Virus record (IMG/VR): IMGVR_UViG_3300047157_000197
Span: 186,001-250,000 of that record
Length of the DNA: 64,000 bases
Strand: one strand, 5' to 3'
Source: a virus
Below are positions 22,763 to 43,291 of the stretch, piece after piece. Below the pieces are notes generated by a model. The model saw nothing but the letters and a program-made list of their open reading frames with translations, did not search any database and was not told the origin of the DNA. A program made the position numbers and the translations under genes. The first letter of the stretch is position 1. Each line of letters starts with the position of its first letter.

Positions 22763-23048
22763 ACCATTAGGGGATAGAGTTTTAATTAAACCTATCAAAC
22801 AAGAAGAAACTAAAACAAAAAGTGGTATCATTATTTCCGAATCAATGACACAATCACAAAAAGTGAATGGTGAAGTTATAGAAATTGGTACAGGTATATT
22901 TTCTCAAAGTGGAGAGCGAATCCCTATGACAGTAAAAAAAGGTGATATTGTATTGTATGAAAAAGGACAAGGTACAAATGAAATTAAAATAGATGATGAA
23001 AAATATCTTCTATTTAATGAACATCAACTAATAGGAATAGTAAAATGA
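22749..23048 (+). CDS. groES: Co-chaperonin GroES
   Basis: The 99-residue protein begins FKPLGDRVLIKPI, the canonical GroES opening, and has SGIIISES in the mobile-loop region (residues 25-32), GEVIEIG, and KKGDIVLYEKGQG near 61-73. GroES caps the GroEL ring. T4 instead uses gp31, which replaces host GroES so the major capsid protein can fold. The gene is embedded in the glycan operon, overlapping its neighbours. It probably helps the host GroEL fold phage capsid proteins (inference). Confidence 0.95.
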   Translation: MKQFKPLGDRVLIKPIKQEETKTKSGIIISESMTQSQKVNGEVIEIGTGIFSQSGERIPMTVKKGDIVLYEKGQGTNEIKIDDEKYLLFNEHQLIGIVK

Positions 23049-27698: not shown

Positions 27699-27711
27699 TT
27701 TCGTATATTTG
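27680..27711 (+). promoter_or_regulatory. Bacteroidetes-like promoter P6 (inside glycan cluster)
   Basis: TTTG at 27680-27683, a 20-base spacer and TATATTTG at 27704-27711, just before the gene at 27721. The start codon is only ten bases after the -7 box, so the transcript leader would be very short. No dyad is seen. Confidence 0.7.
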
Positions 27712-27720
27712 TAAGTAGAT

Positions 27721-28173
27721 ATGATATTAATAGCACATAGAGGAAATATAAATGGTAAGGTTGAGAAGTTTGAAAACACTCCAAGTTACATAGATTCTGC
27801 TATTGAACAAGGTTACGATGTTGAAGTAGATTTACGATATCATCAACATGAATTTTGGTTAGGACATGATTATGCAAAATATGAAATTAATTTAAAATGG
27901 TTAACTGATAGAAAAGATTCTTTATGGATACATTGTAAAGATTTAATAACAATTGATATGTTAAGAGAATTACAGATTCATAACAAAGTTGATTTACATT
28001 ATTTTTTCCATAATGATGATGATTGTACGATAACTTCAAAAGGAGATTTGTGGGTTTATCCAGGAAAACAACCAGTAAAAAATAGTATAGCAGTAATTCC
28101 AGAATGGCATCGAGATGATGTTAGTTTATGTAAAGGAATCTGTTCAGATAATATAATAAATTTTAAAGAATGA
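27721..28173 (+). CDS. Glycerophosphodiester phosphodiesterase-like protein
   Basis: IAHRGN at residues 4-9, ENTPSYIDSAI near 19-29 and EVDLRY near 37-42 match the start of the GDPD TIM-barrel active site (HRG, ExxP and ExD residues). At 150 residues it is much shorter than classic GDPD enzymes (about 250), so it may be a minimal form or have another hydrolytic role. It starts a second transcription unit in the glycan cluster and is coupled to the next gene (ATGA). Confidence 0.6.
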   Translation: MILIAHRGNINGKVEKFENTPSYIDSAIEQGYDVEVDLRYHQHEFWLGHDYAKYEINLKWLTDRKDSLWIHCKDLITIDMLRELQIHNKVDLHYFFHNDDDCTITSKGDLWVYPGKQPVKNSIAVIPEWHRDDVSLCKGICSDNIINFKE

Positions 28174-28604
28174 GTAAAATAGGATTTACAGCAGGTAACT
28201 TTGATTTACTACATCCTGGTTACATTTATACTTTTGAAGAAGCAAAGAAACATTGTGATAAGTTTTTTGTATTTCTACACGCAGACCCATCTGAATATAG
28301 AAATAATAAATACAAACCAGTAGTTCCTTTATATGAAAGGTATAAAACTCTAATGGCTATTAAATACATTGATGCAGTTTATACTTACAAAACAGAGGAA
28401 GAATTATTAGATTTAATTATACATTGGAAACCTGATATAAGAATATTAGGTGAAGATTATATTGGGAAATCATTTACAGGAGATGAATTACCTATTGAAG
28501 TTATTTACACTACTCGTTCACACGAATGGTCAACAACTAAAATTAAAAATCTAATTACAAAACAAACAATTAAACAAAATCCTGATATACTAAAAGATGA
28601 ATAA
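28170..28604 (+). CDS. Cytidylyltransferase-like nucleotidyltransferase
   Basis: FTAGNFDLLHPGYIYTFEEAK at the N-terminus matches the HxGH nucleotide-binding motif of glycerol-3-phosphate and related cytidylyltransferases, although here it reads HPGY, with Tyr for the second His. TRSHEWSTTKIK near residues 115-126 corresponds to the C-terminal RTEGISTT-like motif. The length (144) fits the family. It probably activates an alcohol or sugar phosphate with CTP for the glycan pathway. The changed His makes activity less certain. It overlaps the next gene by 8 bases. Confidence 0.75.
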   Translation: MSKIGFTAGNFDLLHPGYIYTFEEAKKHCDKFFVFLHADPSEYRNNKYKPVVPLYERYKTLMAIKYIDAVYTYKTEEELLDLIIHWKPDIRILGEDYIGKSFTGDELPIEVIYTTRSHEWSTTKIKNLITKQTIKQNPDILKDE

Positions 28605-29799
28605 ACCAGAACAATCAATTCCATTATTTAAAGTTTACATGAACCCATCAGCAAAAGATGCGGCATGTGAAGTATTAGATAGTGGATATATAGGACAAGG
28701 ACCAAAAGTAGATGAATTTGAAAAACAAATTGGAAATTACTTTGGTAATAAAAAAGTAGTAACTACAAATGCAGGAACATCAGCATTACATTTAGCATTA
28801 CATCTTTTGAAGAAACCTAAAGAAGATTGGAATGAAGATGTATTTCAAGGAATTGCATTTGTATCTCACAACTGGCCAGGTATTCAAGATGGTGATGAAG
28901 TTTTAGCAACTGCTCTAACTTGTACTGCTTCAAATTGGCCAATCGTAGCGAATAACCTTAAAATCAAATGGGTAGATATAGACCCAAAAACTCTTAATAT
29001 GGATTTGGAAGATTTAGAAAGAAAATTAACTCCAAAAACAAAAGTTATTATGGGAGTTCATTGGGGTGGGTATCCATTAGATTTGGAAAAAATAAGAGAC
29101 ATCAGAGTTAGATTTAGAAAAGAACATGGGTGGGCTCCTGCTTTGATAGAAGATGGTGCACATTCAATTGGTACAAAATACAAAGGAGAGTATTTAGGTA
29201 ATCATGGAAACTTCGTAATGAACTCATTACAAGCAATTAAACACATCACATCAGTAGATGGTGGTATATTATATTGTCCACATGAAGAATTATACGAAAG
29301 AGCTAAATTACTTAGATGGTATGGTATTGATAGAAGTCCAAAAGGAAGAACTGATTTCAGATGTGAGGCAGATATAGAAGAATGGGGATTCAAGTTCCAC
29401 ATGAATGATTTGTGTGCAGCAATTGGTATGGAAAACTTTAAATCAGTAGATACCATAATTTCTAAACACAAAGATAATGCACAATATTATGATGATAATC
29501 TAAAAGATGTAAATGGAGTTACCTTATTGGAAAGAGAAGAAGGATTTGAATCTGCATTTTGGATTTATACAATGTTGGTAGATGATAGACCATCTTTCTA
29601 TGAGTATATGAAAGAGTGTAACATTACAGTATCTCAAGTACACGAAAGAAATGATAAACATAGTTGTATGGCTGAATTTAAATCAGAACTACCTAACTTG
29701 GATAAAACAATTGGTAAGATAGTATCTATACCTGTTGGTTGGTGGGTTACCAATGAAGAAAGAGAATATATTGTAGATTGTATTAAAAAATGGAAGTAA
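28597..29799 (+). CDS. DegT/DnrJ/EryC1/StrS aminotransferase
   Basis: The 400-residue protein has TTNAGTSALHLALHLL near residues 55-70, IEDGAHSIG near 184-192 and SLQAIKHITSVDGGIL near 208-223, whose Lys would hold pyridoxal phosphate. These are the standard motifs of sugar aminotransferases, which convert keto-sugar nucleotides to amino sugars using Glu or Gln. With the acetyltransferase encoded next it suggests an N-acylated amino sugar. It is coupled to both neighbours. Confidence 0.92.
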   Translation: MNKPEQSIPLFKVYMNPSAKDAACEVLDSGYIGQGPKVDEFEKQIGNYFGNKKVVTTNAGTSALHLALHLLKKPKEDWNEDVFQGIAFVSHNWPGIQDGDEVLATALTCTASNWPIVANNLKIKWVDIDPKTLNMDLEDLERKLTPKTKVIMGVHWGGYPLDLEKIRDIRVRFRKEHGWAPALIEDGAHSIGTKYKGEYLGNHGNFVMNSLQAIKHITSVDGGILYCPHEELYERAKLLRWYGIDRSPKGRTDFRCEADIEEWGFKFHMNDLCAAIGMENFKSVDTIISKHKDNAQYYDDNLKDVNGVTLLEREEGFESAFWIYTMLVDDRPSFYEYMKECNITVSQVHERNDKHSCMAEFKSELPNLDKTIGKIVSIPVGWWVTNEEREYIVDCIKKWK

Positions 29800-30212
29800 C
29801 CTTATTATCATTATTGGAAAGTGATTTGCCATTTTTAATTGAAGTTAGAAATGATGAATCAACTCGTTCTCAATTAGGAAATGATTCTTTATTTACATTA
29901 GAAGATTCTACACAATGGTTTAAAAAAGAACAACCAGAGTGGTTACTTATTATAAACCATAATTTAACTAGAATCGGATACATGAGAATAGATGGTGATA
30001 CAATTGGTATTGATATTCATCCTAATTTTCGTAGAAAAGGATATGCAAGATTGGCATATCAAAAATATTTAGAAGATACTGATTATGCAGACCTTTGGGT
30101 TTTTGAAGATAATCATGCTAAGAAACTATATGAAGAATTAGGATTTGTAGAAACAGGTGAATACGAAACGTTAAGAGATAGAAAGTATTTGAAAATGATA
30201 TACGAAAAATGA
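29790..30212 (+). CDS. GNAT-family N-acetyltransferase
   Basis: The 140-residue protein shows the GNAT acetyl-CoA motif A region: IGIDIHPNFRRKGYARLAYQ near residues 70-89 (RRKGYA corresponds to the Q/RxxGxG/A loop), and KKLYEELGFVETGEY near 111-125 at the end of the fold. It probably acetylates the amino sugar made by the DegT-like aminotransferase upstream, which it overlaps by 10 bases; this is inference from order. Confidence 0.88.
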   Translation: MEVTLLSLLESDLPFLIEVRNDESTRSQLGNDSLFTLEDSTQWFKKEQPEWLLIINHNLTRIGYMRIDGDTIGIDIHPNFRRKGYARLAYQKYLEDTDYADLWVFEDNHAKKLYEELGFVETGEYETLRDRKYLKMIYEK

Positions 30213-30919
30213 AAGTAGCATTAATGTTGACAGGACTTGCTAGAAAAGTTCAAGAAGGATATGATGGTTTTTGGAAATATATTATTGATAATAATGATGT
30301 GGATTTATATCTTCATGCTTGGGAATCTAAACCAGATGAAGTAACTAATAATGAAGATAGTGATATTGTACATCAAGTTTATCCAAATGCAACTTATGTT
30401 AATATTGAGAAACCTTTTAAGTTCACAAAATACAGAGAAGGTATAAAAACACCAAGAGATGATAAATCAAGACCTCTTACAGATTTTGATGTATTCAGTA
30501 ATTTTAGAAGTTTTCCTATGTATTATTCTTGGCAATCTACTTATGAAAATATCAAATCTTCAAACATTGATTATGATTGTATTATAAGAAGTAGATACGA
30601 TATTGGTGGAGATAATTTAAATATATCTGAGTTTGATTTAAATAAAATATTCACATCAAATCATCATTGGAAAAACAGTCATGTTCACGATGATAATTTT
30701 TACATATCAAATCAAAGTAATTCTGATAAAGTATTTCCTACTATATTTGAAAACATAGTTGAATTTAATAGAAGTAAAGGTATGATGGATAGTGCAGAAG
30801 AAAATCTAACTAAGTACTTAGAAAGAATAGGATTAATAAATATCTCAGAAAAATCAGATAAAATAAAATTTGATTTATTAAGAGATAATAAAGTTTGGTG
30901 GCCAAAAGATATAAAATGA
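30209..30919 (+). CDS. Glycosyltransferase-like protein (RSRYD family), copy 1
   Basis: It opens with KVALMLTGLARKVQEGY, and IIRSRYDIGG near residues 128-137 has the R-x-R-Y-D signature that occurs in phage and giant-virus glycosyltransferase-like proteins in place of DxD. The next protein has the related STRYDI and probably shares ancestry. I cannot assign a GT family. Both ends are ATGA junctions. Confidence 0.6.
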   Translation: MKVALMLTGLARKVQEGYDGFWKYIIDNNDVDLYLHAWESKPDEVTNNEDSDIVHQVYPNATYVNIEKPFKFTKYREGIKTPRDDKSRPLTDFDVFSNFRSFPMYYSWQSTYENIKSSNIDYDCIIRSRYDIGGDNLNISEFDLNKIFTSNHHWKNSHVHDDNFYISNQSNSDKVFPTIFENIVEFNRSKGMMDSAEENLTKYLERIGLINISEKSDKIKFDLLRDNKVWWPKDIK

Positions 30920-31590
30920 AAATAGGAATTAACTTAGTAGGAGTATCTTATAACAATGCAATAACTGGTGGACGTTTACGAAACTATGAAGATGCAATAG
31001 AAAACTTTCATACTTACATTGTAGAACCATTTAGAGAAAAGGGATATAATGTCCAATTTTATTTATATAGTTACGAAAATGAAAAACAAGATAAGATAAT
31101 AAACGATTACAGACCTTGTATGAAATCGCAATTCGTAAAACCAGATTATAATAAATTAGGTGGTGGGACAAAAGTTTCTGAAGGATACAAAGTTATGTCA
31201 GTTAGTTATCTAAATAGTTTAGAACAATTAAAGAATCAAGATTTAGATTTAATTATATCAACTAGATACGATATTAAGTTTCTTAAAAATCCATTTGAAG
31301 AATATAATTTTGATTTTGATAAAATGAATTTCTTATGGAGAGAACCAGAACTTAAAGATTTACCATTAGTTAATGATACTTTTTTGGTATTTCCATATAA
31401 AATGTTAGATAATGTTGTTGATTCTATAATTGAAATGGAAGAAAATCCACCACAAGGTAAAAATATAGCAATGCATAATTGGTATTTACCCATGGTAAAT
31501 CAAGTTGGAGAAGATAAAGTACAATGGGTTGACGATGAATTCAGAACCGCAATACAGAATGAGTTATACATATTAACAAGAAAGACATAA
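30916..31590 (+). CDS. Glycosyltransferase-like protein (RSRYD family), copy 2
   Basis: Starting at the ATGA junction (30916) gives 224 residues, opening KIGINLVGVSYNNA. LIISTRYDIKFLKNP near residues 112-126 is the same core as in the previous protein. DKMNFLWREPEL and MHNWYLPMVNQVG follow. The two genes in a row suggest a tandem duplication that has diverged. The acceptor is unknown. Confidence 0.58.
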   Translation: MKIGINLVGVSYNNAITGGRLRNYEDAIENFHTYIVEPFREKGYNVQFYLYSYENEKQDKIINDYRPCMKSQFVKPDYNKLGGGTKVSEGYKVMSVSYLNSLEQLKNQDLDLIISTRYDIKFLKNPFEEYNFDFDKMNFLWREPELKDLPLVNDTFLVFPYKMLDNVVDSIIEMEENPPQGKNIAMHNWYLPMVNQVGEDKVQWVDDEFRTAIQNELYILTRKT

Positions 31591-31593
31591 TAT

Positions 31594-32352
31594 ATGAATA
31601 AATTAATAAGTGGATATTGGTGGGCATGGAAAGAGATAGAAGCAGGAAAGAAATCTATGCAAACTCTAAGAAAGTATTATCCTGATGCTGATTTGTTTAT
31701 TAATGTAGATTATGAAGGTGATGTAGATGGTTATACCAAAGTAGGTAAAGAACTAAATGCAACAGTTACTCGTAATAATTTTCAGTTAGGATATTGTGGA
31801 AACTTTGGTGATAGAGATATAGGATATGATTATTGGTCAAAAGAAAAAGCAGTAGAATGGTTAAGAGGAGTATATGATGCTTGTACTAAAACTGATTCAA
31901 AGTATATGATGTTGTTTGAAGAAGATGATTTTGTATTAAAGAACATCTCAATCTTAGATACAGATTTTTCAATAGCAATTCATCCAACTGCACCATCACC
32001 AGTTAGAATGAGACCAAATCTAATACCAAAACAGTTTTTAGATTATTCTAAAGAGATTGGTGGTATTGGAGATTGTCCTGGTTATGCAAGTGGTGGGGGA
32101 ACTATTTTTAATAGAGAACATTATATGGATAGTTACGAAAGAATATTAGATAAGTTTACAGATGTATATGATGATTTCTGTAAAATAAATAAAATATTTG
32201 GTTGGGAAGATTTTTTATTCCAATACATTTTTATGTTAGGTGGATATGAAGTTACACAAAATCATGATTTATGTGAACTATGGGAAGTACCAAACTTTGA
32301 GGGATTTGAAATATTAACTGGTTGTAAAGACCCAAACTTAATTACACTATAA
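31594..32352 (+). CDS. Glycosyltransferase-like protein (252 aa)
   Basis: MMLFEEDDFVLKN near residues 106-118 is a likely metal/donor-binding acidic motif (EEDD) of GT-A enzymes, and IFGWEDFLFQYIFML near 202-216 recalls the C-terminal GWED segment of GT2-like galactosyltransferases. ASGGGTIFNREHY lies between them. The family assignment is by pattern only. It is coupled to the next gene (TAATG). Confidence 0.6.
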   Translation: MNKLISGYWWAWKEIEAGKKSMQTLRKYYPDADLFINVDYEGDVDGYTKVGKELNATVTRNNFQLGYCGNFGDRDIGYDYWSKEKAVEWLRGVYDACTKTDSKYMMLFEEDDFVLKNISILDTDFSIAIHPTAPSPVRMRPNLIPKQFLDYSKEIGGIGDCPGYASGGGTIFNREHYMDSYERILDKFTDVYDDFCKINKIFGWEDFLFQYIFMLGGYEVTQNHDLCELWEVPNFEGFEILTGCKDPNLITL

Positions 32353-33161
32353 TGGATGATGATACTTACACAATACTAGGTTGTATTACAAAATATAAGG
32401 CAGATGATATAAGACCTTATGTAGAATCAATTGAACAGACAGGTTTTAAAGGTAGAAAAGTAATGTTGGTATATGATGTACCACAAGAAACTATTGATTA
32501 TCTTAAATCAAAAGGATGGGATTTGTTTGGAGGAGAACTTCAACAACATATAATCTTACAGAGGTTTAGAGATTTATATAAACTATTAGGTTCAGAAATA
32601 AAAGGTACAGTTATTTGGACTGATGTTAAGGATGTGATATTTCAAAAAGACCCAACTGATTGGATTGAGCATAATATGGAAGATGATATATTATCATTCT
32701 CAGAATGTATCACATTTAAAAATGACCCTTGGGCGTGTGTAAATGCAGGAACTTCTTTTCCTATGGAGTGGGAATGGTTACAAAATAAAACATCTTATTG
32801 TGCAGGAACTATCGTTGGTGATGCTTGTTATCTTAGAGATTTATTCATCGATATTTACAGATGGAGTATGACAAGTTCAAACCCAGGCCAGTTATCAGAC
32901 CAAGCAGCTTATAATGTGTTAATTAACTTACATCATATTAGTGATTGTGTTCAAACAGTAAAACAGGAAGAGGGATTTGTTACCCAATTAGGAACTGTGT
33001 TGGTAAAGAAAGATGAGTTTAAAGATGTTCTATTAGAACCAACACCAATCGTAGATGAAAACTATATAGTAAAGAATCAAAATGGAGAACCTTTCTGTTT
33101 AGTACATCAGTACGATAGAATACCAGCATTTAAAGAATTTATTTATAACAAATACAAATAA
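32352..33161 (+). CDS. Glycosyltransferase-like protein (269 aa)
   Basis: VIWTDVKDVIFQKDP near residues 92-106 carries a TDxKDV motif like the DxD of GT-A enzymes acting on surface glycans. NAGTSF and YCAGTIVGD follow near 129-157, and SDQAAYNVLI near 180-189 is typical of this fold, in which the Asp contacts the substrate. The gene overlaps its neighbours by one base on each side. Confidence 0.65.
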   Translation: MDDDTYTILGCITKYKADDIRPYVESIEQTGFKGRKVMLVYDVPQETIDYLKSKGWDLFGGELQQHIILQRFRDLYKLLGSEIKGTVIWTDVKDVIFQKDPTDWIEHNMEDDILSFSECITFKNDPWACVNAGTSFPMEWEWLQNKTSYCAGTIVGDACYLRDLFIDIYRWSMTSSNPGQLSDQAAYNVLINLHHISDCVQTVKQEEGFVTQLGTVLVKKDEFKDVLLEPTPIVDENYIVKNQNGEPFCLVHQYDRIPAFKEFIYNKYK

Positions 33162-34054
33162 TGAAAGTAGTAATATCAATTTTCTGTTTACCATATGAGA
33201 TAGATGATTTGGAAAATACACTAAATCAACTAAAGAAGGCATCTTATTATATAGATAAAAAAATAGATTGGTGTTTAGATGTAACGATGTGTTTGGCAGA
33301 TGATATGGTAAATTGGAATAAATCATCTTTACCAAAGAAGTTTTTTGAAGATAAATTATTAAAATTATTATCAATAACAGATTGGTGTACGAAGAATATT
33401 CAAACTTCAACAGAAATAAAAGGATGTGTATCTCAGAGAAGATATTCTTTAGAAAAACATAGAGAAGCAGATTACTTTATTTGGTTAGATACAGATATTA
33501 TATTTGATGAAAGAACGTTGTTCTATATCGAACAAAGTATAAAAGGTACAAATAAAGATTATTTACAAACAATCATTACACCAGAAATTGTTAGAGTTTG
33601 GGATAATACTTGGGATTGTATTGTAAATGAACAATTCTTAGATAAACCACTTGAATATCAAAAAACAAATGACCCTTATAAAGATAGTGGTATCAAAGGA
33701 GATATTAGTATTGTACCTGTAAATAATTCAAACTCCCCTCAATCAAGATTTAAATTTGCAGGAGGATGGTTCACTTGTATAAGTGGAAAACTTCTAAATA
33801 GAATTGGAATACCAGATTCATTTGCTCACTATGGTTATGAAGATACCTTTTTAATGGTGGGTAGTGAAAAACTCGTTAGAGAACAAAATGAAGAAATTCA
33901 TCAATTCAAAATAAAAAACCTAGTAGTTTGTGAAAACTACAAATATAGAGGACATTATCATTACCTAAATTCTCTCTCAGTTTACGATAGAAGAGAGGAA
34001 TTTAAAAAAATATCCCATGATAATTTCATATCAGAAGTAAAAATAATACAATAA
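33161..34054 (+). CDS. GT-A glycosyltransferase-like protein (297 aa)
   Basis: YFIWLDTDIIFDERTLFYI near residues 105-123 is a clear DxD-containing segment of GT2-like enzymes, and FKFAGGWFTCISGKLLNRIG near 199-218 with HYGYEDTFLMVGSEK near 224-238 gives the GGxF and (Y/W)ED motifs. It is the last gene of the glycan cluster; about 200 bases of non-coding DNA follow. Confidence 0.75.
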   Translation: MKVVISIFCLPYEIDDLENTLNQLKKASYYIDKKIDWCLDVTMCLADDMVNWNKSSLPKKFFEDKLLKLLSITDWCTKNIQTSTEIKGCVSQRRYSLEKHREADYFIWLDTDIIFDERTLFYIEQSIKGTNKDYLQTIITPEIVRVWDNTWDCIVNEQFLDKPLEYQKTNDPYKDSGIKGDISIVPVNNSNSPQSRFKFAGGWFTCISGKLLNRIGIPDSFAHYGYEDTFLMVGSEKLVREQNEEIHQFKIKNLVVCENYKYRGHYHYLNSLSVYDRREEFKKISHDNFISEVKIIQ

Positions 34055-34254: not shown

Positions 34255-34764
34255 TTGAAGTACGCTACATTAAATGTATTTAAAATATTCATTTTATGTA
34301 TCTTTGTTTTATTACCGACAGGTTCTAATGAGATACATACAAGTGATGACAACCTCATTAAAGTCGGTGAAGTGACCAACGAAATCCGAATGGGACAGTT
34401 TGCAGGTAACCGAAACCTAGCAGTTGGTGTCAAGAATATCCTCGAAGAATTATTAATGGATTTAGATTATGATTTATCAGACCAAGCATCTACGCAAATA
34501 AATGTAAGATTGGTCTTTTTTGATATAAAAAATATTGGAACATCGGTTGCGGTGTTTCATAAAGATGTTTCATTAACGCAAATTATTGCGATTGGTGAAT
34601 TAGAAGTCAAGGGAAAAGTTAAAAAACGTACTACTCAAAAAGGAACGAGTAAAACAATTTCTACTAGTACTCTTGTAGTTGCACAAGACGGAACATTTAA
34701 CCAACAAACAGCCTCAATTGCTTTAAAGAAAGTATGTGAGGCAATTATTAAGGATTTATTATGA
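34255..34764 (+). CDS. Secreted protein of the curli-like locus (169 aa)
   Basis: The start is TTG at 34255, supported by AGGAG. The first 20 or so residues form a signal peptide (FKIFILCIFVLLPTGS). The mature part is a strand-rich domain with IRMGQFAGNRNLAVGVKNIL and later a repeated Thr/Lys stretch (KGKVKKRTTQKGTSK). I do not recognise the family. It begins the operon that contains the CsgG-like pore gene and may be a periplasmic partner. It overlaps the next gene by ATGA. Confidence 0.65.
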   Translation: MKYATLNVFKIFILCIFVLLPTGSNEIHTSDDNLIKVGEVTNEIRMGQFAGNRNLAVGVKNILEELLMDLDYDLSDQASTQINVRLVFFDIKNIGTSVAVFHKDVSLTQIIAIGELEVKGKVKKRTTQKGTSKTISTSTLVVAQDGTFNQQTASIALKKVCEAIIKDLL

Positions 34765-36410
34765 AAAAAATTTTATTATTATTAATTAGTGTATTTTTTA
34801 CACTATCTGTATCTGGTCAGAATGACCCCGCTGAGATAAATTATAGTCCAGTAAATACAGTAACAAAAGTAGGGGATACTTTAGTTATGAAGTTCCAATA
34901 CAACAAACAAGATGGAGGAGATTTGACATTAGCTCAATTCGATTTCGAATATAACAACAAATTGTTATCTTACATCTCAAGTACCTCACAAGCACCAACA
35001 GGTGCATCATTTGCTAGAAACAATTGGACAGGGTATAAGTTTGTACCTAAAGCAAATACATCAGAAGATGATATGGATGTACAATACACTTGGTGGAAAG
35101 ATGAAGCAGGAAATGCTTCCTATTCTACTTCTGCTGATTGGAGTGTAGAGAGAACTACAATCCAAACCTCAGCTGCATACGAAGATGGTGGAGAATTTGT
35201 AAAGTATAGCTTCAAAATAAAGGATAAGTTTGGTAGTGGGTATGATAACTACAACAATATCATTAAAGTGAATTGGGCAAACTACCAAAAAGCAGATGGA
35301 ACAAAAATTCAAACTATTAAATCACCATCTACACAATCACTAAGTGGTATCGAGGGTGGTAATGCTGGTGCATTTACTATTAACCTTAAAACTGCAAATT
35401 CAACTAAAACAGATTATTCTTATACTATTAAGAATGGTGCAGGTGAATCAGTTGCAACTGGTACTTTTGATGAAAGTGGACAAGCATCTGTAAGTGGTTT
35501 AGAAAACAACGTAACTTATACTGCTGAAGCAAACTTAGCCGAAGATGCAACTTACTTAGATGAAGTAGTTACTGTATCTGATTTGGCATTAGTATTCGCT
35601 GAAGCAATTGGAGCAGGTTCTGGTCCAAGTGGTGGTTCAACTACATTTGATTATTTCATACAAGATATAATGGGTGATGTTGTTGGTAGTGATAATGGAG
35701 TAGATTTCCAAGATTCATATGAGATACTTGCTTACCTACAAGGTGTAACAAGTGGTAATACAAACTTAATCACACAAGATGGACAAACGGAAGATTATAG
35801 TGGTATTGAATCTACATATGGTGCAGTTACTAATAATACAGTAACCTTCGCTAAATCATTCACACCAATTGATTCAGATGCTACTTCTAAAACAATTGAT
35901 TTAGCTCATGGTTTAAGAGGTGATGTAAATTTCTCTCACTCATGGGAGCCGAGTGTATCAAGTGGTGAAAAAGCAACATCAGCTCAAACATCATCATTTA
36001 GAATATCATCGGCAGCTGGTTCTAAATATAGTCAAACAGAAACAGCAAATATCGATTTAATATCTGAAATAAATGATGATGGAAGAGTAGTATTTTCAAT
36101 TAATTCTGAGATTGAAGATATGGTTGGTTCTCAGTTTAATATCGTATATGACCCTAACATATTATCTTTAGAAAATGTAATATTTGATACTGGTAATGAA
36201 ATGACTAACTTTTCAAACGTAATCGAAGCAGGGTATGTAAGAGTTGGTTCATTTGACCAAAATGTTAGTTCAACAGTTAAAGCAGGAACACCATATCAAT
36301 TAATATTTGTTCCAGTTGAAGATATATCAAATGCATCAGGTTTAATTTCGTTTAGAGTTAAAGAAGGTGTAAAAGCAGATGGAACACAAATTAATTTTAT
36401 AATACAATAA
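34761..36410 (+). CDS. Secreted cohesin/dockerin-like protein, copy 1 (549 aa)
   Basis: A signal peptide (residues 1-19, ending SVSG) leads into a beta-sandwich resembling cohesin (about 20-190; VGDTLVMKFQYNK, LAQFDFEYNN). A dockerin-like segment is seen near 313-327 (GVDFQDSYEILAYLQG), and a second cohesin-like domain at the C-terminus (about 430-549; VGSQFNIVYDPNILSLENV). The latter part resembles the protein at 40863. In cellulosomes, cohesins bind Ca-loaded dockerins; here they may join secreted proteins to each other or to the cell surface (inference). A lipoprotein gene follows after 18 bases. Confidence 0.65.
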   Translation: MKKILLLLISVFFTLSVSGQNDPAEINYSPVNTVTKVGDTLVMKFQYNKQDGGDLTLAQFDFEYNNKLLSYISSTSQAPTGASFARNNWTGYKFVPKANTSEDDMDVQYTWWKDEAGNASYSTSADWSVERTTIQTSAAYEDGGEFVKYSFKIKDKFGSGYDNYNNIIKVNWANYQKADGTKIQTIKSPSTQSLSGIEGGNAGAFTINLKTANSTKTDYSYTIKNGAGESVATGTFDESGQASVSGLENNVTYTAEANLAEDATYLDEVVTVSDLALVFAEAIGAGSGPSGGSTTFDYFIQDIMGDVVGSDNGVDFQDSYEILAYLQGVTSGNTNLITQDGQTEDYSGIESTYGAVTNNTVTFAKSFTPIDSDATSKTIDLAHGLRGDVNFSHSWEPSVSSGEKATSAQTSSFRISSAAGSKYSQTETANIDLISEINDDGRVVFSINSEIEDMVGSQFNIVYDPNILSLENVIFDTGNEMTNFSNVIEAGYVRVGSFDQNVSSTVKAGTPYQLIFVPVEDISNASGLISFRVKEGVKADGTQINFIIQ

Positions 36411-36428
36411 TAAAAAGGAAACAGAAAA

Positions 36429-36806
36429 ATGAAAAAAATATTAACATTACTTAGTTTGGTTTTAATAATGGGTTGTTACCAAGATGATGATTTAGTAACA
36501 CTTTATCCAGACCAAGAAGTACCACAATCTTTACAGATTAAAGATTTGATTGGTATTAAATTAGAAAACACTATCGTAACTGATAGAGTTGCGATGAATG
36601 TAAAATTACCACTTGATGGTAAATATAGAATAAAGATTAGACATGGTATGACCAATGAACTAATCTCACAAGAGATGATAACTGCTGGTGAGGGTGATAA
36701 CCTTCTTAAAGTGTATGTTGCATCTTTAGAGAAAAGTGGTTATGTGATTCAATTAACAGATGAATTTCATAATATATTAGGAAATCAGTCTTTCGTAGTA
36801 AATTAA
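36429..36806 (+). CDS. Lipoprotein of the curli-like locus, copy 1 (125 aa)
   Basis: LVLIMGCYQDDD at residues 10-21 is a lipobox with Cys16 as the lipidation site; the acidic residues after the Cys are compatible with outer-membrane or surface sorting in Bacteroidetes. The rest is strand-rich (YRIKIRHGMTNELISQEMI). It pairs with the upstream cohesin/dockerin-like gene, as a similar lipoprotein gene does at 42953. It may anchor that protein (inference). AGGAA precedes the start. Confidence 0.72.
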   Translation: MKKILTLLSLVLIMGCYQDDDLVTLYPDQEVPQSLQIKDLIGIKLENTIVTDRVAMNVKLPLDGKYRIKIRHGMTNELISQEMITAGEGDNLLKVYVASLEKSGYVIQLTDEFHNILGNQSFVVN

Positions 36807-36807
36807 A

Positions 36808-36945
36808 ATGTTAAATAGTATATTTTTAGTGTCAGTTGGATTTATTACAATGTGGTTAGTATGTAAGTACGAAATAACAAAATGTAAAATTGGTAAATCA
36901 TGTGATTGTAAAGAATGTAGAGAAAAAAGGAGAGCAAAATTATGA
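36808..36945 (+). CDS. Small cysteine-rich membrane protein (45 aa)
   Basis: The N-terminal half is one membrane segment (SIFLVSVGFITMWLVC) and the C-terminal half has four further Cys residues in KCKIGKSCDCKEC, a possible metal site or disulfide cluster. It starts one base after the lipoprotein gene and is coupled to the next by ATGA. No family is recognised. Confidence 0.6.
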   Translation: MLNSIFLVSVGFITMWLVCKYEITKCKIGKSCDCKECREKRRAKL

Positions 36946-37244
36946 GTGAAAAAAAAGAAGGATTCTTTGCACAAATAAAGAATCAAGTAATAGCTGGGGT
37001 TGGTATAGTACTAACTACATTGGGTGGTGTTTTTATAGATGAGGTTAAATCATTTGTAGGAATAGAAGATGATTCAGAACCACAAACTGAGGTTGTACAA
37101 GAAAACAATCAATCAGTAAATGTAGAAGGACCTACTATCGTAGTAAACATACCAGAACAACAGGTAAAAGAAAAAGTAATTATCAAGGAAGTTAAAGTTC
37201 CTGTTAAGAAGAAAAAAGAAAAAGAACAAGAAATTGATTGGTAA
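36942..37244 (+). CDS. Membrane-anchored protein with basic tail (100 aa)
   Basis: One membrane segment (VIAGVGIVLTTLGGVFI, residues 16-32) is followed by an acidic stretch, a strand-like part (EGPTIVVNIPEQQV) and a Lys-rich tail (KVPVKKKKEKEQE). AGGAG stands nine bases before the start. It is one of several small membrane proteins preceding the CsgG-like gene, and its function is unknown. Confidence 0.65.
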   Translation: MSEKKEGFFAQIKNQVIAGVGIVLTTLGGVFIDEVKSFVGIEDDSEPQTEVVQENNQSVNVEGPTIVVNIPEQQVKEKVIIKEVKVPVKKKKEKEQEIDW

Positions 37245-37262
37245 TTTAAATAAAGGAGAAAA

Positions 37263-37490
37263 ATGAGTAGTTTCAAAAAATGGTGGAAAGTAAATGGACA
37301 AGGTATCGGATTTATAGCTGGTATAGTGTTTCTAAATGCTTACTTTTTAATATTAGGTGATTTAATGAACAAACACGAATGGTTAGCTGGTGTTTGGTTA
37401 TTATGTTTCTTTGGATTTGCAGGATGGTATTCTTGGCAAATGAAGATTCATGGTTGGAGATTGCCTAAGGATATAAAAGATACCCACTAA
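37263..37490 (+). CDS. Small two-helix membrane protein (75 aa)
   Basis: Two membrane segments are visible: GIGFIAGIVFLNAYFLILG (about 14-32) and WLAGVWLLCFFGFAGWYSW (about 40-58), joined by a short charged loop. The ends are basic. AGGAG lies four bases before the ATG. The shape fits a holin-like protein or a small export accessory; there is no direct evidence for either. Confidence 0.65.
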   Translation: MSSFKKWWKVNGQGIGFIAGIVFLNAYFLILGDLMNKHEWLAGVWLLCFFGFAGWYSWQMKIHGWRLPKDIKDTH

Positions 37491-37550
37491 CGTTTAATAT
37501 TAATACATGGAGAACAATGATAAACAATGGAAGTAATAAAACAAATTTTC

Positions 37551-37554
37551 GGAG
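37551..37554 (+). promoter_or_regulatory. Shine-Dalgarno GGAG deciding the start at 37560
   Basis: GGAG lies 5 bases before the ATG at 37560, while the in-frame ATG at 37527 has no such site. This favours the shorter product. Confidence 0.55.
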
Positions 37555-37559
37555 ATAAA

Positions 37560-37721
37560 ATGTCAGACTATAAAATAGTTGATATTATGTTGAAAATATG
37601 GGTTGCTGGTTTATTATCTATGGTTGTACTTGGTTTAGTTGCTGTGATTAGTCACATCATCATGAACCCATCATCAGTAGATAACGCAACATTTGGTGTA
37701 TTTGATACACTAGGGAGTTAA
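37560..37721 (+). CDS. Small membrane protein (53 aa)
   Basis: One long membrane segment, MLKIWVAGLLSMVVLGLVAVI (first 20 residues: MLKIWVAGLLSMVVLGLVAV), lies near residues 9-29, followed by a short polar tail. I choose the ATG at 37560 because GGAG precedes it; starting at the ATG 37527 would add 11 residues. It lies in the run of small membrane proteins upstream of csgG. Function unknown. Confidence 0.55.
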   Translation: MSDYKIVDIMLKIWVAGLLSMVVLGLVAVISHIIMNPSSVDNATFGVFDTLGS

Positions 37722-37723
37722 AT

Positions 37724-37828
37724 ATGAAAAGAATTATAGAATTAATAATCAAGATAGATGATTGGGTAATGAAATCATTATATGATATATATCCAGAATT
37801 AACCAAACATCAGAAAGATAAAAAATGA
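37724..37828 (+). CDS. Small protein of unknown function (34 aa)
   Basis: A short ATG frame between the membrane protein and csgG, with product KRIIELIIKIDDWVMKSLYD followed by a basic end. It is coupled to csgG by ATGA, which supports translation. It may form an amphipathic helix. No family is recognised. Confidence 0.5.
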   Translation: MKRIIELIIKIDDWVMKSLYDIYPELTKHQKDKK

Positions 37829-38544
37829 GAAATATATTTATTTTAATTTTATGTGTATTATTCACACAAAATACTATTGCACAAACTGTTGGTAAAATCA
37901 AGGCAGAAACATATCAAGCTGAATTTGAAAAAAAGAAATCAATTGATGATGTATCTGATTACGATGGTCCATATATTCCTATAGCTTTACTTAATATATC
38001 TGCTAGTGATGGGGTTTACGAAATGTGGCCTGAGTTAAAGGATGCTAGAGTAGGTTTAGGTGTAACAAACATGGTAATAGAGTACTTGGATTGGACAAAC
38101 AGATTCGAGTTCGTAGAGGAGAAGTCAGAGATTAAGGATAGAATGAAAAATCAATGGGTTGCATCAAGAAAGGGTGTTTCTCAAAATGAAGTTTATGGAA
38201 TGGGTAAAGTAATGTTGGCGAATTATTTCGTTACAATAGAGATTTACGATTTCTCAGTTTCAGAAGATGAGGTTTTATCTTTAAAAGATGGTTCTAAACA
38301 AACACAAACAACTCGTTTAGGGTTGCAAGTTCGTTTTACTAATGCCGAGAATGGTACTTACTTTGTAGGTTCTGGTCTAGGTGAAGCAAATACAGTTAAG
38401 ACTCAAGAGGGTTTGCTGGGATTAGATTTGGAGGAAATAAACTTCAGACAATCAGCAATTGGGGTAACTACCAGAAAAGCATTAGAAACGGCTTCAGCAA
38501 GAATAGTAGCAAGAATGATTAGAAAAAAAATATTTCCAAACTAA
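37825..38544 (+). CDS. csgG: CsgG-like outer-membrane export channel
   Basis: The protein (239 residues) has a signal peptide with a likely signal peptidase I site after residue 19 (NTIA/Q). The mature part follows the CsgG layout: an ALLNISASDG strand, WTNRFEFVEEKSEIKDRMKNQ (the position of E. coli DSRWFIPLERQGLQNLLNE), the YFVTIEIYDFSVSED strand, a membrane-hairpin region, and a C-terminal helix (TRKALETASARIVARMI). CsgG forms a nonameric secretion pore for curli subunits. E. coli CsgG is a lipoprotein; here no lipobox Cys is seen. CsgG homologues are known in some marine phages. Neighbouring secreted proteins are likely cargo or partners. Confidence 0.8.
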   Translation: MRNIFILILCVLFTQNTIAQTVGKIKAETYQAEFEKKKSIDDVSDYDGPYIPIALLNISASDGVYEMWPELKDARVGLGVTNMVIEYLDWTNRFEFVEEKSEIKDRMKNQWVASRKGVSQNEVYGMGKVMLANYFVTIEIYDFSVSEDEVLSLKDGSKQTQTTRLGLQVRFTNAENGTYFVGSGLGEANTVKTQEGLLGLDLEEINFRQSAIGVTTRKALETASARIVARMIRKKIFPN

Positions 38545-38547
38545 TGA

Positions 38548-40323
38548 ATGAGAAAACTACTATCGATACTTGCATTTTGGTTCATAACTAATCTTAGTTA
38601 TGGACAAACATTCACACAGACATTTGTAGATAGATGTACTGGTGAAGTACAAGTTGTTACCGCTAATTTTACAAGTGGTTCTGCTATCGTATCCTTTTAC
38701 AACGAAGCTAAATTATTCACATACACACAATATACTAATGGTGAACTCCAACAATGGTTAGTTCAGAAATATGCATGGTGGGCTGCACTATCCCCATGTT
38801 CATCTGCGAGTAACGCAACCAACAACGCTAATAATACTGCAAACAACGCAACCAATAATACCAATTCAGGTTCAAGTGGTTCTAGTGGTGGTGGAGATAG
38901 TGGTTCAAGTGGTTCATCAGGTGGTAGTGGAGATAGTGGTGGTGGAAGTGGAGATTCAGGCGGTGGAGGTTCTGATGGTGGAAGTGGAGATTCTGGTGGC
39001 GGTGGTTCTGATGGCTCTGATGGTGGTGGTGGAGATTCTGATGGAGGAGGAGGCGATTCCGATGGCGGGGGTGGTGATTCCGATGGTGGCGGTGATTCCG
39101 ATGGTGGAGATAGTGATGGTGGGTCTGGTGATTCCGATTCTGATGGTGGAGATAGTGATGGTGGAGATAGTGATTCTGATTCTGATGGTGGAGATAGTGA
39201 TTCCGATTCCGATAGTGATTCTGATTCCGATAGTGATTCTGATTCCGATAGTGATTCTGATTCTGACTCTGATGGCGATAGTGATGATGATTCTGATTCT
39301 GACTCTGATGGCGATAGTGATGATGATTCTGATGGGGATTCTGATGATGATTCCGATGGAGATAGTGATGATGAATCTGATGATGATTCCGATAGTGATG
39401 AAGATTCTGATGAATCTGATGAAGATAGTGAAGAAAGTGATGAGGAAGATAGTGAAGAAGAATCCGATGAAGAAGAAAAGGAAGAGGAAGAAGAAAGTGA
39501 TGAAGAAGAGGAAGAAGAAGAAAAAGAGGAAGAAGAGGAAGAAGACGATGAAGAAGAAGATGAGGAAGAAGAAGATGAGGAAGATGAGGAAGATGAGGAA
39601 GACGAAAAAGATGAAGAAGATGAGGAAGAAGAAGAAGAAAAGAAAAAGAAATTTATGCCAATAGTATTGAAGGCAGATGTAATGTCAATGCAAGCTCTAA
39701 CAAGAGAATACAACCAAGTTCTTGCAATTGGAGCATCACAAGCATCAATCTATGGTGATATAACAAATACAGCAACTTTACAAGTATATGATAACTTAAA
39801 ACAAGTTGGGTTATCATTGGGTAGAAGTAAAGTAAGTTTGAATGAAAATTATCAAGTAACTTGGGTAGATGGAGCAAACGTATCTTATATGAGAAATTAT
39901 CAGATGAACTCAACTACATTATCTCTCAGTAGAATGAAACCAATGGGTAAGTATGGAACTGTTGGATTGGGTGTTAGTTATTCATTTATGTTTGGTAAAG
40001 ATGCTCTTGGAAATACAATGCCAAAAATGGGTACTATGGGATATAATGTTCTTTATACAAATATGGTAAAAATAAATGATAGAATAATGTACACACCAGC
40101 ATTGATTGGTGCACAAAACCCATTATCTTATACAGAAAAAGTTGAGGGGTTCGATGCCTTTTCATCAACATCAAAAGATTTTATAGGAATCCTTGCAAAT
40201 TCCTTTACAATACAATTAACAAAAAGTTTTTCGTTTAATGCAGGTTGGACGATAATTTATAGTAGTAATGAGTTTGTTCCAATTATGAATTCGTTTATGA
40301 TAGGAGCAAAGTTACCCTTTTAA
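38548..40323 (+). CDS. Ser-Asp/Glu-repeat surface protein with barrel-like C-terminus
   Basis: The parts in order are: a signal peptide (residues 1-20, NLSYGQ); a small domain (about 21-90); an Asn/Thr-rich linker; Gly/Ser/Asp repeats (about 107-215); Ser-Asp repeats (to about 290); a Glu/Asp block (to about 365) and a few Lys; and a 220-residue C-terminal region of alternating strands ending in Phe (FMIGAKLPF), like an outer-membrane barrel. Ser-Asp stalks are known in staphylococcal Sdr adhesins, and such acidic regions bind Ca2+. It follows csgG after three bases, so it may be exported by, or work with, that channel (inference). Confidence 0.75.
   Translation: MRKLLSILAFWFITNLSYGQTFTQTFVDRCTGEVQVVTANFTSGSAIVSFYNEAKLFTYTQYTNGELQQWLVQKYAWWAALSPCSSASNATNNANNTANNATNNTNSGSSGSSGGGDSGSSGSSGGSGDSGGGSGDSGGGGSDGGSGDSGGGGSDGSDGGGGDSDGGGGDSDGGGGDSDGGGDSDGGDSDGGSGDSDSDGGDSDGGDSDSDSDGGDSDSDSDSDSDSDSDSDSDSDSDSDSDGDSDDDSDSDSDGDSDDDSDGDSDDDSDGDSDDESDDDSDSDEDSDESDEDSEESDEEDSEEESDEEEKEEEEESDEEEEEEEKEEEEEEDDEEEDEEEEDEEDEEDEEDEKDEEDEEEEEEKKKKFMPIVLKADVMSMQALTREYNQVLAIGASQASIYGDITNTATLQVYDNLKQVGLSLGRSKVSLNENYQVTWVDGANVSYMRNYQMNSTTLSLSRMKPMGKYGTVGLGVSYSFMFGKDALGNTMPKMGTMGYNVLYTNMVKINDRIMYTPALIGAQNPLSYTEKVEGFDAFSSTSKDFIGILANSFTIQLTKSFSFNAGWTIIYSSNEFVPIMNSFMIGAKLPF
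38866..39650 (+). repeat. Low-complexity Gly/Ser/Asp/Glu coding repeats
   Basis: The DNA encodes degenerate tandem repeats. GATAGTGATTCTGATTCC occurs in tandem at 39211-39228 and 39229-39246 and, with one change, at 39247-39264. A 36-base unit is repeated exactly at 39253-39288 and 39289-39324. From 39420 the repeats become GAA/GAT-rich. The array is likely to vary in length between relatives. Confidence 0.9.
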
Positions 40324-40332
40324 GGAGATAAT

Positions 40333-40863
40333 ATGAGAAAAATAGATTTTAAATTAGTAGTAATAGGTATATTGATAGGAGTATCAGTATGGCAATTTTT
40401 AAACCCAACAATACAAGAAGTAGAAAAGATTAAAGAAATCGAAGTACTTCAGACTGTAATTGATAGTATCTATGTTGAAAAACTGATAGAGAAGAAAGTT
40501 TTTGTACCAAAGTATATTACAAAAATAAAAAGAGATACTATAATCAAAGAAGTAATTGTAGAAAAAATTAAAACTAAAATCAAAAAGGTTTATATAGATA
40601 AACCATATGAAGTAATCGTACCGAAGTATGAATTACCAGAATCAAAGTGGTATGCTGGATTTGCATATCAATGGGATATGGAAAATTACTTTAGTGGAGC
40701 AAATGTACAAGTTTTACATAAATTCAAAAATGATAAAATGTTTAGTATAGATGTTGGATTTAGAAACGATTTAATAGATTTAGAAAATAATCTTGGAAAA
40801 TTAAGACCTTATGTTGGAGGAACAATATATTTCAGATTAGATAAACCAAAAGATAATTTTTAA
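40333..40863 (+). CDS. Membrane-anchored coiled protein of the curli-like locus (176 aa)
   Basis: An N-terminal membrane segment (FKLVVIGILIGVSVWQFL, residues 5-22) is followed by a Lys/Ile/Glu-rich stretch (about 30-95) and a strand-rich end (WYAGFAYQWDMENYFSGANV onward) that could be part of a barrel. AGGAG is five bases before the ATG. It is coupled to the large PA14 protein gene (TAATG). No family is recognised. Confidence 0.62.
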   Translation: MRKIDFKLVVIGILIGVSVWQFLNPTIQEVEKIKEIEVLQTVIDSIYVEKLIEKKVFVPKYITKIKRDTIIKEVIVEKIKTKIKKVYIDKPYEVIVPKYELPESKWYAGFAYQWDMENYFSGANVQVLHKFKNDKMFSIDVGFRNDLIDLENNLGKLRPYVGGTIYFRLDKPKDNF

Positions 40864-42956
40864 TGAAGAAACTTCTTTTCATATTATTACTGTTACCAAC
40901 TTTAGTATTTGGTCAGACCGGTGCTGGTTATACTCCAAGTGGTGAAGGAAAAATAAATTATAAATCCTACAAAACTCACTCTGGTAATGGTGCAGCATCA
41001 TCTTATAATAGTGTATCATATAGTGGTGGAGCAGGTTCAACTGCTGAGTTTGATGCAATGGTTGATACAAACCAACCAGGTACAACATTAACTCATGTTG
41101 GTGAAGCAACACCATGGAGTTCAGGTGGTTTAAATGGAGGACACCCACCGAGATGGGGTAATTCGTATTTTGCAATAGTTTATTCAGGTTGGTTCAAACC
41201 AAATAAAAATGGAACTTATAATTTCAAAACTTATGCAGATGATTCATCAGAAACTAGATATAGAGAAGTAGGAACTACTACTTGGCAAACAATTACATTT
41301 CAATGGGGTTGTTGTTCTAATCGATATGGTACTGCAAATTTAGATAATACTAAATGGTATGAATTTGAATTTAGATACCAAGAATATGGTGGAGGGGATT
41401 ATTACTATTTTGGTTATTCAATACCAGCAAATTCAAGTTCACCAAATTACAATTGGATAAGTTCCAATCATCAATTTGGAACTTGGACAAATGTAGACCC
41501 AAGTGGTGGAACAACTACTACAACAGAACCCGAAGTTGATTTAGATTTAGAATTCCATTCTCAATTAGCACCAGAACAATATAGATTTGGTGTGTATTAT
41601 GATGCATCAAATGAACAAGATGGTTCAACATATTTCAATACTTCTACAATGAATTCAAAATATTATTTAGATGATGATGGAAGTAAAGATATAACTGATT
41701 ATCTAAATTTGGTTAAGATGACTGATGGTTTGAAAGCAACCACAGAAAGTGGAAGTGTAGAGTGGGTAGTTTTATATCCATATGATTCTACAAACGATAG
41801 ACATCGAATACTGATTGATGGTAGAGAATTTACTGCTACTAATCCTGATACAGACCCAAATGATTTAAAATCATTACAATTACTTGATTTATATGATGGA
41901 ACAATTACTGTTCATAGTGTAAGTGAGGGTTCGGGTGGTTGGCAACAATATTACATACCAGGTAATCTAACAACTGCTATATCTAATAGTTCATATGGAA
42001 GTGGTGTGATTAGAAATGCTGGTAGTTATTTTGGTATTAGAGCAGAGTTCTCATTTGAAGATGTTGAAATATATAAAGGACATAAAATAGTTGTTAATAA
42101 TCCATCTGATAATATAGAAGGGTGGACAGCTGAAGAATTTATGGATGATTACATTACAGTTGCAGATGTAGTTGCAGGATTTAATGAATTAGCAGGTGGT
42201 GGAATATTCGGTGGATATAAAGGAGATTTGAATGGAGTTCAATTACAAAACTCAGATGTTAATCAAGATGGTGAGTTTGATTTTCAAGATAGTCAAATAG
42301 GATTGGCTTTCTTAAATGGTGATGATACTCCTTTTAATGGTTACCTACAAGAGATAATGAGAATAGTTCCTAAATCAGAATACGATAATACTACAACTAC
42401 TAATTGGAAAACACAAACAAATAAATCACCATCAACAAATTTTACCTTTAGTATTATAGATACGATACAAACCTTAGAATATAAAGTTTCATTTATAGGT
42501 GATGTAAATCTTTCACATTCTGCACCACAATCAACAAGTTCACCTGGTACTCAATCAACATCAGTCAGAAATTCATCTTCTCAAAAATCAAGTGAATTAG
42601 AAGTGTTGTTAGATATTGGTATGGAAGAAGATAAACTTGTGGTAACATTAGATGTACCACAAAACAATCATAACATTGTAGGTTCTGAATTTAGAATAGG
42701 ATATGATAACACTAGAGTGGAGTTTGATAGAATAGAAACTACTTCTAACTTACAATCATTTTCAGCTGAAAGAACAAACTACATAAAGTTAGGTTCTATA
42801 TCTACTGATGGTTCTCAAAATTTAAATGGTGGTGTACAATATAAGATTTACTTTTCACCACAACAAACTTTTGAATCTATATTAGGATTACTATCAGTTA
42901 CAAAATCAGAATTAGTAAAACAAAATGGGGGTGGAATAGACCATAAAATAAAATGA
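40863..42956 (+). CDS. Secreted PA14/dockerin/cohesin-like protein, copy 2 (697 aa)
   Basis: A signal peptide (residues 1-18, LVFGQ) precedes a PA14-type carbohydrate-binding domain (about 60-200; GWFKPNKNGTYNFKTYADD, WYEFEFRYQEYGGGDYY). A dockerin-like calcium loop, DVNQDGEFDFQDSQIGLAFL, lies near 466-485, and a cohesin-like beta domain at about 580-697 (VGSEFRIGYDNTRVEFDRIE). The C-terminal half resembles the protein at 34761. PA14 domains bind glycans, so surface adhesion is plausible. A lipoprotein gene follows by ATGA. This set, unusual for a phage, may build a surface layer on the infected cell or on the particle (inference). Confidence 0.75.
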   Translation: MKKLLFILLLLPTLVFGQTGAGYTPSGEGKINYKSYKTHSGNGAASSYNSVSYSGGAGSTAEFDAMVDTNQPGTTLTHVGEATPWSSGGLNGGHPPRWGNSYFAIVYSGWFKPNKNGTYNFKTYADDSSETRYREVGTTTWQTITFQWGCCSNRYGTANLDNTKWYEFEFRYQEYGGGDYYYFGYSIPANSSSPNYNWISSNHQFGTWTNVDPSGGTTTTTEPEVDLDLEFHSQLAPEQYRFGVYYDASNEQDGSTYFNTSTMNSKYYLDDDGSKDITDYLNLVKMTDGLKATTESGSVEWVVLYPYDSTNDRHRILIDGREFTATNPDTDPNDLKSLQLLDLYDGTITVHSVSEGSGGWQQYYIPGNLTTAISNSSYGSGVIRNAGSYFGIRAEFSFEDVEIYKGHKIVVNNPSDNIEGWTAEEFMDDYITVADVVAGFNELAGGGIFGGYKGDLNGVQLQNSDVNQDGEFDFQDSQIGLAFLNGDDTPFNGYLQEIMRIVPKSEYDNTTTTNWKTQTNKSPSTNFTFSIIDTIQTLEYKVSFIGDVNLSHSAPQSTSSPGTQSTSVRNSSSQKSSELEVLLDIGMEEDKLVVTLDVPQNNHNIVGSEFRIGYDNTRVEFDRIETTSNLQSFSAERTNYIKLGSISTDGSQNLNGGVQYKIYFSPQQTFESILGLLSVTKSELVKQNGGGIDHKIK

Positions 42957-43291
42957 GAAAGTATATAGTATTAATATTGTTCGTTATACTATCTTGTCAA
43001 CCAGAAGAGTTGATGATTGTAGAACCACTACCACAATACGAAATGATATTTGAAGAATCTGAATCATCAGTAACAGATGGACAAGAATTTTCTTTTGAAA
43101 TAATATCAGAAGAAGAACATCATTTAGTTATATCAAAAGATGGTTCTGTTATTACAAAAGAATCATTTTTACCTACACTTGAATTGAATACAAGAAAGAT
43201 TTATACTAAATCACTTCCTACTGATTTGTTACAATTGGAACTAATTAACTCTAATGGTGTTATAAAATCAACTTTTATACAAATATATTAA
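42953..43291 (+). CDS. Lipoprotein of the curli-like locus, copy 2 (112 aa)
   Basis: FVILSCQPEE at residues 10-19 is a lipobox with Cys15. The mature part is acidic and strand-rich. It is placed right after the PA14/dockerin-like gene, just as the lipoprotein at 36429 follows its cohesin/dockerin-like gene, and the two lipoproteins have similar size and ending patterns. An anchoring role is possible. Coupled start (ATGA). Confidence 0.72.
   Translation: MRKYIVLILFVILSCQPEELMIVEPLPQYEMIFEESESSVTDGQEFSFEIISEEEHHLVISKDGSVITKESFLPTLELNTRKIYTKSLPTDLLQLELINSNGVIKSTFIQIY

Follow-up and report, generated by a model that had tools for sequence, protein, structure and literature searches.

The window analysed here is a stretch of 64,000 nucleotides, positions 186001–250000 of a 275,970-base virus record (G000), and it encodes a phage DNA polymerase at 4879 (PHROG 262, 1e-186). 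Between 34255 and 43291 of the window lies a run of plus-strand genes in the order small CsgG-like protein, scaffold, lipoprotein, three small membrane proteins, CsgG-like protein, linker/barrel-like protein, stalk protein, PA14 protein and lipoprotein. The open reading frames (ORFs) that an earlier note on this DNA had described are all present at the positions it gave, on the plus strand and with the signal peptides and lipoboxes it reported. Scans for promoters and terminators gave nothing exceeding shuffles. Pfam and PHROGs scans of the locus proteins taken singly are nearly blank, so related loci were used to build families.

Directly upstream of the locus, at 18692–34054 (+), is a long cluster of genes for glycosyltransferases, a sugar epimerase, a nucleotidyltransferase and a DegT aminotransferase, part of which is retained in this position across the window's lineage, as if the phage were remaking host surface glycans too. 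At 10051–12759 (+) we find a complete phage-encoded SusC-like TonB-dependent receptor of 902 aa (CarboxypepD_reg_2, Plug, barrel). It has 436 candidate matches in IMG/VR, the best 80 of the 436 at 66–100% identity, and some of these relatives share contigs with the cohesin locus; we found no paper on phage-encoded SusC-like TonB-dependent receptors in the open-licence literature. Downstream, small ORFs at 45133, 46604, 46930 and 49980 have similar N-termini (M/V-I-K/T-L-K/T-..-I/M-L/I) that, as a sequence pattern, is reminiscent of a targeting or propeptide tag.

The locus is found in 63 IMG/VR contigs, in the cultured Flavobacterium phage immuto and in 2 MAG contigs, and the phages that carry it range from 160 kb (immuto) to 373 kb. 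The CsgG-like protein of ORF 37825 has 63 relatives in IMG/VR at 51–92% identity, relatives in the immuto records at 54% identity, and only two among the genome contigs searched, both of which are phage-like contigs inside MAGs. When neighbouring ORFs were clustered, a cohesin-type gene was present upstream of the CsgG-like gene in 58 of the 58 loci that have 3.5 kb or more of flanking sequence, the next gene downstream was the linker/barrel-like one in 47/47 loci, and a second secreted gene followed it in 39/47; these counts overstate independence because several contigs are near-copies, yet the family spans 51–92% identity. The typical order in relatives is scaffold, small TM protein, holin-like protein, CsgG-like protein, linker/barrel-like protein, lectin protein, (secreted nuclease), small CsgG-like protein, (secreted HExxH protein). 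The earlier note had proposed a search for the same gene order in marine phages, and the order that we find kept in dozens of contigs indicates that the locus is more than a chance arrangement.

In immuto, the operon set is held by gp012–gp019, whose annotation goes no further than nuclease, lectin, cohesin and hypothetical proteins. It is the same operon, with a nuclease, a C-type lectin protein, a split cohesin and T9SS protein, a CsgG-like protein (54% identical to that of the window), a linker/barrel-like protein and a small CsgG-like protein, but it differs from the window in having a split scaffold with a T9SS domain, no lipoproteins and no PA14. Other relatives add further genes to the operon. 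A secreted DNA/RNA non-specific endonuclease (Endonuclease_NS, 3e-21) is present at L041:9029–9619, at L016:13914–14372 and in relatives of these; this secreted or periplasmic nuclease could degrade the DNA of superinfecting phages, which would fit exclusion. A small secreted HExxH protein lies within another operon (L064:8193–8768), and an endolysin (PHROG 181, 3.5e-69 for the L022 member) and an L,D-transpeptidase-like gene adjoin the operon in many relatives (L021:5929–7375 and relatives).

The scaffold gene (34761–36410, +) encodes a signal peptide, an N-terminal cohesin-like domain, an Ig-like domain, a degenerate dockerin-like segment and a C-terminal cohesin-like domain. Searched alone, ORF 34761 gives two weak matches to Pfam cohesin (E 0.0022 and 0.007), and 6 of the 14 members of its family match cohesin, the best at 6.5e-8. 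Its AlphaFold model has a mean pLDDT of 62, with the N-terminal domain mostly at 75–90, and its first matches in the PDB are cohesins and scaffoldins (best E 3.6e-7), with single cohesins at a TMt of 0.6–0.7. Compared with BFVD, the top match of the model (E 4e-18) is a phage entry named 'Secretion system C-terminal sorting domain', and the next are proteins of 363 and 243 aa, lengths equal to those of immuto gp014 and gp015. The cohesin-like part that had been proposed for this protein is borne out by the family matches and by comparison of the predicted structure, which supports a cohesin fold. In addition, ORF 34761 and the T9SS-tailed cohesin proteins of relatives align colinearly across ~450 columns (hhalign P=6.5e-8, 0/30 shuffles), and the colinear stretch stops just before the relatives' sorting domain.

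The second secreted protein (40863–42956, +) has a PA14/GLEYA domain, a dockerin-like Ca loop and a C-terminal cohesin-like domain. The PA14 assignment of the earlier note is confirmed by the best match in the ORF 40863 family (E 4.8e-18), and the glycan-binding domain of relatives at this position is Lectin_C (15/22), Laminin_G_3 (6/22) or PA14. ORF 40863 contains a single perfect Ca loop, DVNQDGEFDFQD, and a strict DxNxDx6D loop is present in 6/8 of its family (vs ~3% in shuffles) and in 15/22 of the relatives' downstream proteins (vs 0.05% in shuffles). The loop of ORF 34761 is degenerate, with a strict loop in 2/14 of that family. The dockerin-like parts claimed for both proteins therefore hold for the loop of ORF 40863 but less well for ORF 34761, where the model is of low confidence in this region, and the dockerin fold remains putative. 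Matches to Pfam Dockerin_1 are weak (best 1.3e-4 for alignment A3, 0.0013 for A6 and 0.19 for A5), and a single Ca loop is clear where a dockerin would have a duplicated Ca-binding F-hand. ORFs 34761 and 40863 have a dockerin-like plus cohesin module in common (hhalign P=2e-32), in agreement with the duplicated modules noted earlier, and the duplication is in the window's lineage.

What the earlier note missed, and what we regard as the main point, is that the cohesin protein of most relatives carries a T9SS sorting domain. The relatives' upstream protein (~640 aa) combines a Pfam cohesin match of ~1e-9 with a T9SS type A sorting domain (TIGR04183, 1.1e-10 to 1.7e-11); over the relatives including immuto, TIGR04183 ranges from 1.1e-10 to 9e-12 and cohesin from 6e-9 to 8e-10 on the same protein, and of the two genes into which the immuto scaffold is split, the second has both (6e-9 for cohesin, 9e-12 for TIGR04183). 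In the other lineages (IMG/VR, immuto, L068), the sorting domain is at the C-terminus of the cohesin scaffold in 47/47 proteins. Presence and absence were scored with a profile (A9), built from the sorting domains of the phages, that was run over all ORFs. For the window itself such a domain was rejected: ORFs 34761 and 40863 have none, and TIGR04183 has no match anywhere in the 276-kb record (G000). Another phage gene, L027:16042–18234, has a T9SS type B sorting domain (TIGR04131, 1.2e-12).

Small lipoproteins accompany both modules of the window, as had been described: lipoprotein 1 (36429–36806, +), with an LIMGC lipobox, and its paralogue lipoprotein 2 (42953–43291, +), with a VILSC lipobox, belong to one homologous family (alignment A7). 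A lipoprotein directly follows the scaffold in 16/16 loci whose scaffold lacks the C-terminal sorting domain (CTD), namely the window, L001–L005, L007–L015 and L067, while after each of the 47 CTD-bearing scaffolds comes a small membrane protein, in no case a lipoprotein. In this count, the lipoproteins of the window and L001 (MGC box) were scored by family alignment; the lipobox pattern alone missed both. The lipoprotein domain resembles the sorting domain itself (A7 vs A9, hhalign P=1.6e-4, probability 50–72%), and 0/200 column shuffles reach its score (29.2 vs 10.2 ± 2.1), although the similarity is a remote one. In a tree of the CsgG-like proteins, the loci with the lipoprotein come together in a single group (UFBoot 91, SH-aLRT 69); the larger, well supported set around them includes CTD-type loci too, and this nesting indicates that the lipoprotein state is probably derived by one change. 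This gene pattern points to a replacement in the window's lineage, where a small lipoprotein encoded on its own has taken the place of the sorting domain and would anchor the scaffold.

The CsgG-like gene (37825–38544, +) encodes a member of a 65-member family with a signal peptide and short charged hairpins; there is no lipobox on the window protein, and a Cys is found in some relatives only. The best Foldseek match of its model (pLDDT 67) is CsgG (E 4e-9, prob 1.00, TM ~0.47), with FlgT, PelC and LptE ranking lower. The likeness is one of fold only, because profile-profile comparison (hhalign) of the family with 2 and with 22 true CsgG sequences was not significant and not above shuffles. 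Pfam CsgG (PF03783) matches 2/41 family members (best E 0.0012) and none in G000 at E 0.001, and a PDB sequence search with the CsgG-like protein gave chance matches only. When aligned with CsgG of E. coli and HTVC008M, both membrane hairpins are 9–10 residues shorter and the tip of the first is charged, which makes a channel doubtful. Thus, of the CsgG-like channel gene that had been proposed, the fold stands but the channel is not supported. A second, small CsgG-like protein, secreted or periplasmic, is encoded by ORF169 (34255–34764, +; start codon TTG) and belongs to the same fold group as ORF 37825 (A8 vs A2, hhalign P=1.5e-7, 0/100 column shuffles); in relatives' operons it is usually at the 3′ end.

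Of the three small membrane proteins that precede the CsgG-like gene, the first (36942–37244, +; 100 aa) has an N-terminal TM segment and an acidic, charged C-terminal tail ending in DW, and by position, size and sequence pattern it is the probable counterpart of the relatives' cluster 4, which ends in SW or PW. The other two are lineage-specific: a 75-aa protein with two hydrophobic segments (37263–37490, +) and a 64-aa protein with the conserved C-terminus FGVFDTLGS (37527–37721, +). Also lineage-specific is the stalk protein (40333–40863, +), whose 176 aa comprise an N-terminal TM segment, a charged coiled-coil-like stalk and a C-terminal beta-rich domain.

The product of ORF 38548 (38548–40323, +) had been described as a Ser-Asp-rich surface protein. 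The Ser/Asp-rich part is real, but it is a linker within a composite protein delineated by gene order, alignment A11 and composition: a signal peptide, a two-Cys N-terminal domain, a Ser/Asp/Gly/Glu-rich linker of ~275 aa with a net charge, by composition, of about -129, and a C-terminal beta-rich, barrel-like domain. A C-terminal Phe is present in the window, yet in only 12/54 complete relatives, and an outer-membrane barrel therefore stays a suggestion. A PHROG 'head maturation protease' match to this ORF (2e-4) was discarded as low-complexity, being largely in the acidic linker, and CsgF was rejected as an identity for its N-terminal domain (hhalign P 0.069). General Pfam and PHROGs scans, together with the dedicated comparison for CsgF, gave no match to curli families among the operon proteins. 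With short charged hairpins and no CsgF found, the curli-like export of the earlier note is not supported, and the T9SS domain on the relatives' cohesin protein offers a better route for export and anchoring.

To place the operon between phage and host, we used the 201 genomes of the family of the L067 MAG. The scaffold profile matches 172 of the 201, and the listed matches are in the CTD part except for that on the phage-like contig of G001. The CsgG-like profile matches 1/201, on this same phage-like contig. A bacterial origin of the operon was rejected, as the 200 other host-family genomes have no CsgG-like match. The confinement of the listed host matches, other than that on the phage-like contig, to the CTD part, together with a CsgG-like match only on a phage-like contig, argues that the operon is phage-borne and bears a sorting tag of a kind common in hosts.

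Parts of this arrangement have been published. Pelagimyophages such as HTVC008M have csgF and csgG (PMC7029224), and so has the methylophage Melnitz (PMC9004378); here, too, a phage CsgG-fold protein is part of an operon of secreted proteins in marine phages, with glycosyltransferases elsewhere in the genome. However, these phages encode true CsgG (44% identical to that of E. coli in HTVC008M) together with CsgF, they are not reported to have cohesin, dockerin, lectin or T9SS domains, and their hosts are SAR11 and OM43 rather than Bacteroidota. Cryophage has products with a T9SS type A sorting domain, including a PA14 protein, termed a unique occurrence by its authors (PMC7468147), but its cargo is described as variable single genes (endoglucanase, GH39, PA14), whereas here the operon is conserved and in the window's lineage a lipoprotein replaces the sorting domain. 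As in the cellulosome scaffoldins of Clostridia, a cohesin fold and a dockerin-like Ca loop are found on secreted multi-domain proteins, several of them surface-anchored; unlike the cellulosome, the locus is phage-encoded, lacks enzymes and a cellulose-binding scaffold, has one clear Ca loop and not two, and combines cohesin with dockerin-like parts in single proteins. In the open-licence literature on cohesin and dockerin in phage genomes and on T9SS with phage-encoded proteins, we found no description of this operon. The earlier view that the combination is undescribed is consistent with this, but csgGF operons in phages and T9SS cargo in one phage had been published before.

On balance, we favor the interpretation that the locus encodes a glycan-binding complex, scaffolded by cohesins, that would be displayed on the outside of the infected Bacteroidota cell, most likely to serve superinfection exclusion or adhesion. 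The main proteins, in which signal peptides are seen, would all enter the periplasm via the host Sec system, and the scaffold with its two cohesin domains would then be placed on the outer surface. In most relatives, the scaffold may use the host T9SS via the sorting domain at its C-terminus; in the window's lineage, the small lipoprotein with its related domain would stand in for it. The second secreted protein (PA14 here, C-type lectin or laminin-G in relatives) may dock on the cohesins by its dockerin-like loop, and because both window proteins have cohesin and dockerin-like parts, they could form chains. The two CsgG-fold proteins and the linker/barrel-like protein might assist the complex in crossing the outer membrane or in settling on it. 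Finally, the surface glycans of the coated cell would be masked and competing phages excluded, which is the most likely benefit. The last two of these steps are the weakest.

In favor of this surface complex are the conserved gene order, the presence of T9SS and cohesin domains on one protein, the CTD/lipoprotein pattern, the swappable glycan-binding domains, the Ca loops, the upstream sugar-gene cluster and the phage-only CsgG-like family. Against it are the single Ca loops, degenerate in ORF 34761, the lack of a T9SS signal in the window protein and the remote similarity of lipoprotein and CTD. A close alternative, which we consider rather unlikely as the principal role, is adhesion, where a lectin-bearing coat would glue the infected cell to neighboring hosts or particles so that virions find new hosts. 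The variable glycan-binding domains and the potential for chain building fit this, and the same idea was published as 'sibling capture' for the pelagimyophage curli genes (PMC7029224); however, no clumping was seen with csgGF-bearing Melnitz (PMC9004378), though no cohesin proteins are reported there. Also counting against the surface complex, and fitting lysis, are the holin-like small membrane genes inside the operon and the endolysin cluster, which lies within ~7 kb of it in 18/49 relatives' loci. CsgG-fold and barrel-like proteins could open or destabilize the outer membrane late in infection together with these, as in the lysis pore proposed for phage CsgGF (PMC9004378), but we think this improbable: it leaves the cohesins, lectins and T9SS sorting domains unexplained, the hairpins of the CsgG-like protein seem too short, and too charged, for a membrane-spanning role, and no relative of the endolysin or of the L,D-transpeptidase-like neighbor was found in the window. 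A partial curli or type VIII secretion system passing an amyloid-like or other fiber through a CsgG channel, as the earlier note framed it, has the CsgG fold in its favor but is very unlikely given the shortened hairpins, the CsgG and CsgF comparisons and the scans for curli families described above.

Phages usually change the host surface with one small protein or with sugar enzymes. The surface complex that we favor may represent a class of phage systems not recognised before, in which a lectin coat with a cohesin scaffold assembles itself on a still-living Bacteroidota host via the hijacked T9SS of that host (in one lineage with a lipid-anchored copy replacing the sorting domain) and is served by dedicated CsgG-fold assembly factors, a proposal that we make tentatively. 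If it is true, a conserved operon of several genes that brings together cohesin, lectin and T9SS-tailed proteins would take surface remodelling by phages to a new level, and it would link two so far separate lines of published observation, the CsgG operons of phages, whose role is unknown, and phage T9SS cargo. The question is directly testable, because the full operon is present in the cultured phage immuto, which grows on Flavobacterium LMO8. A sorting domain traded for a lipoprotein encoded on its own would in turn be a natural experiment on how T9SS-type domains anchor proteins.
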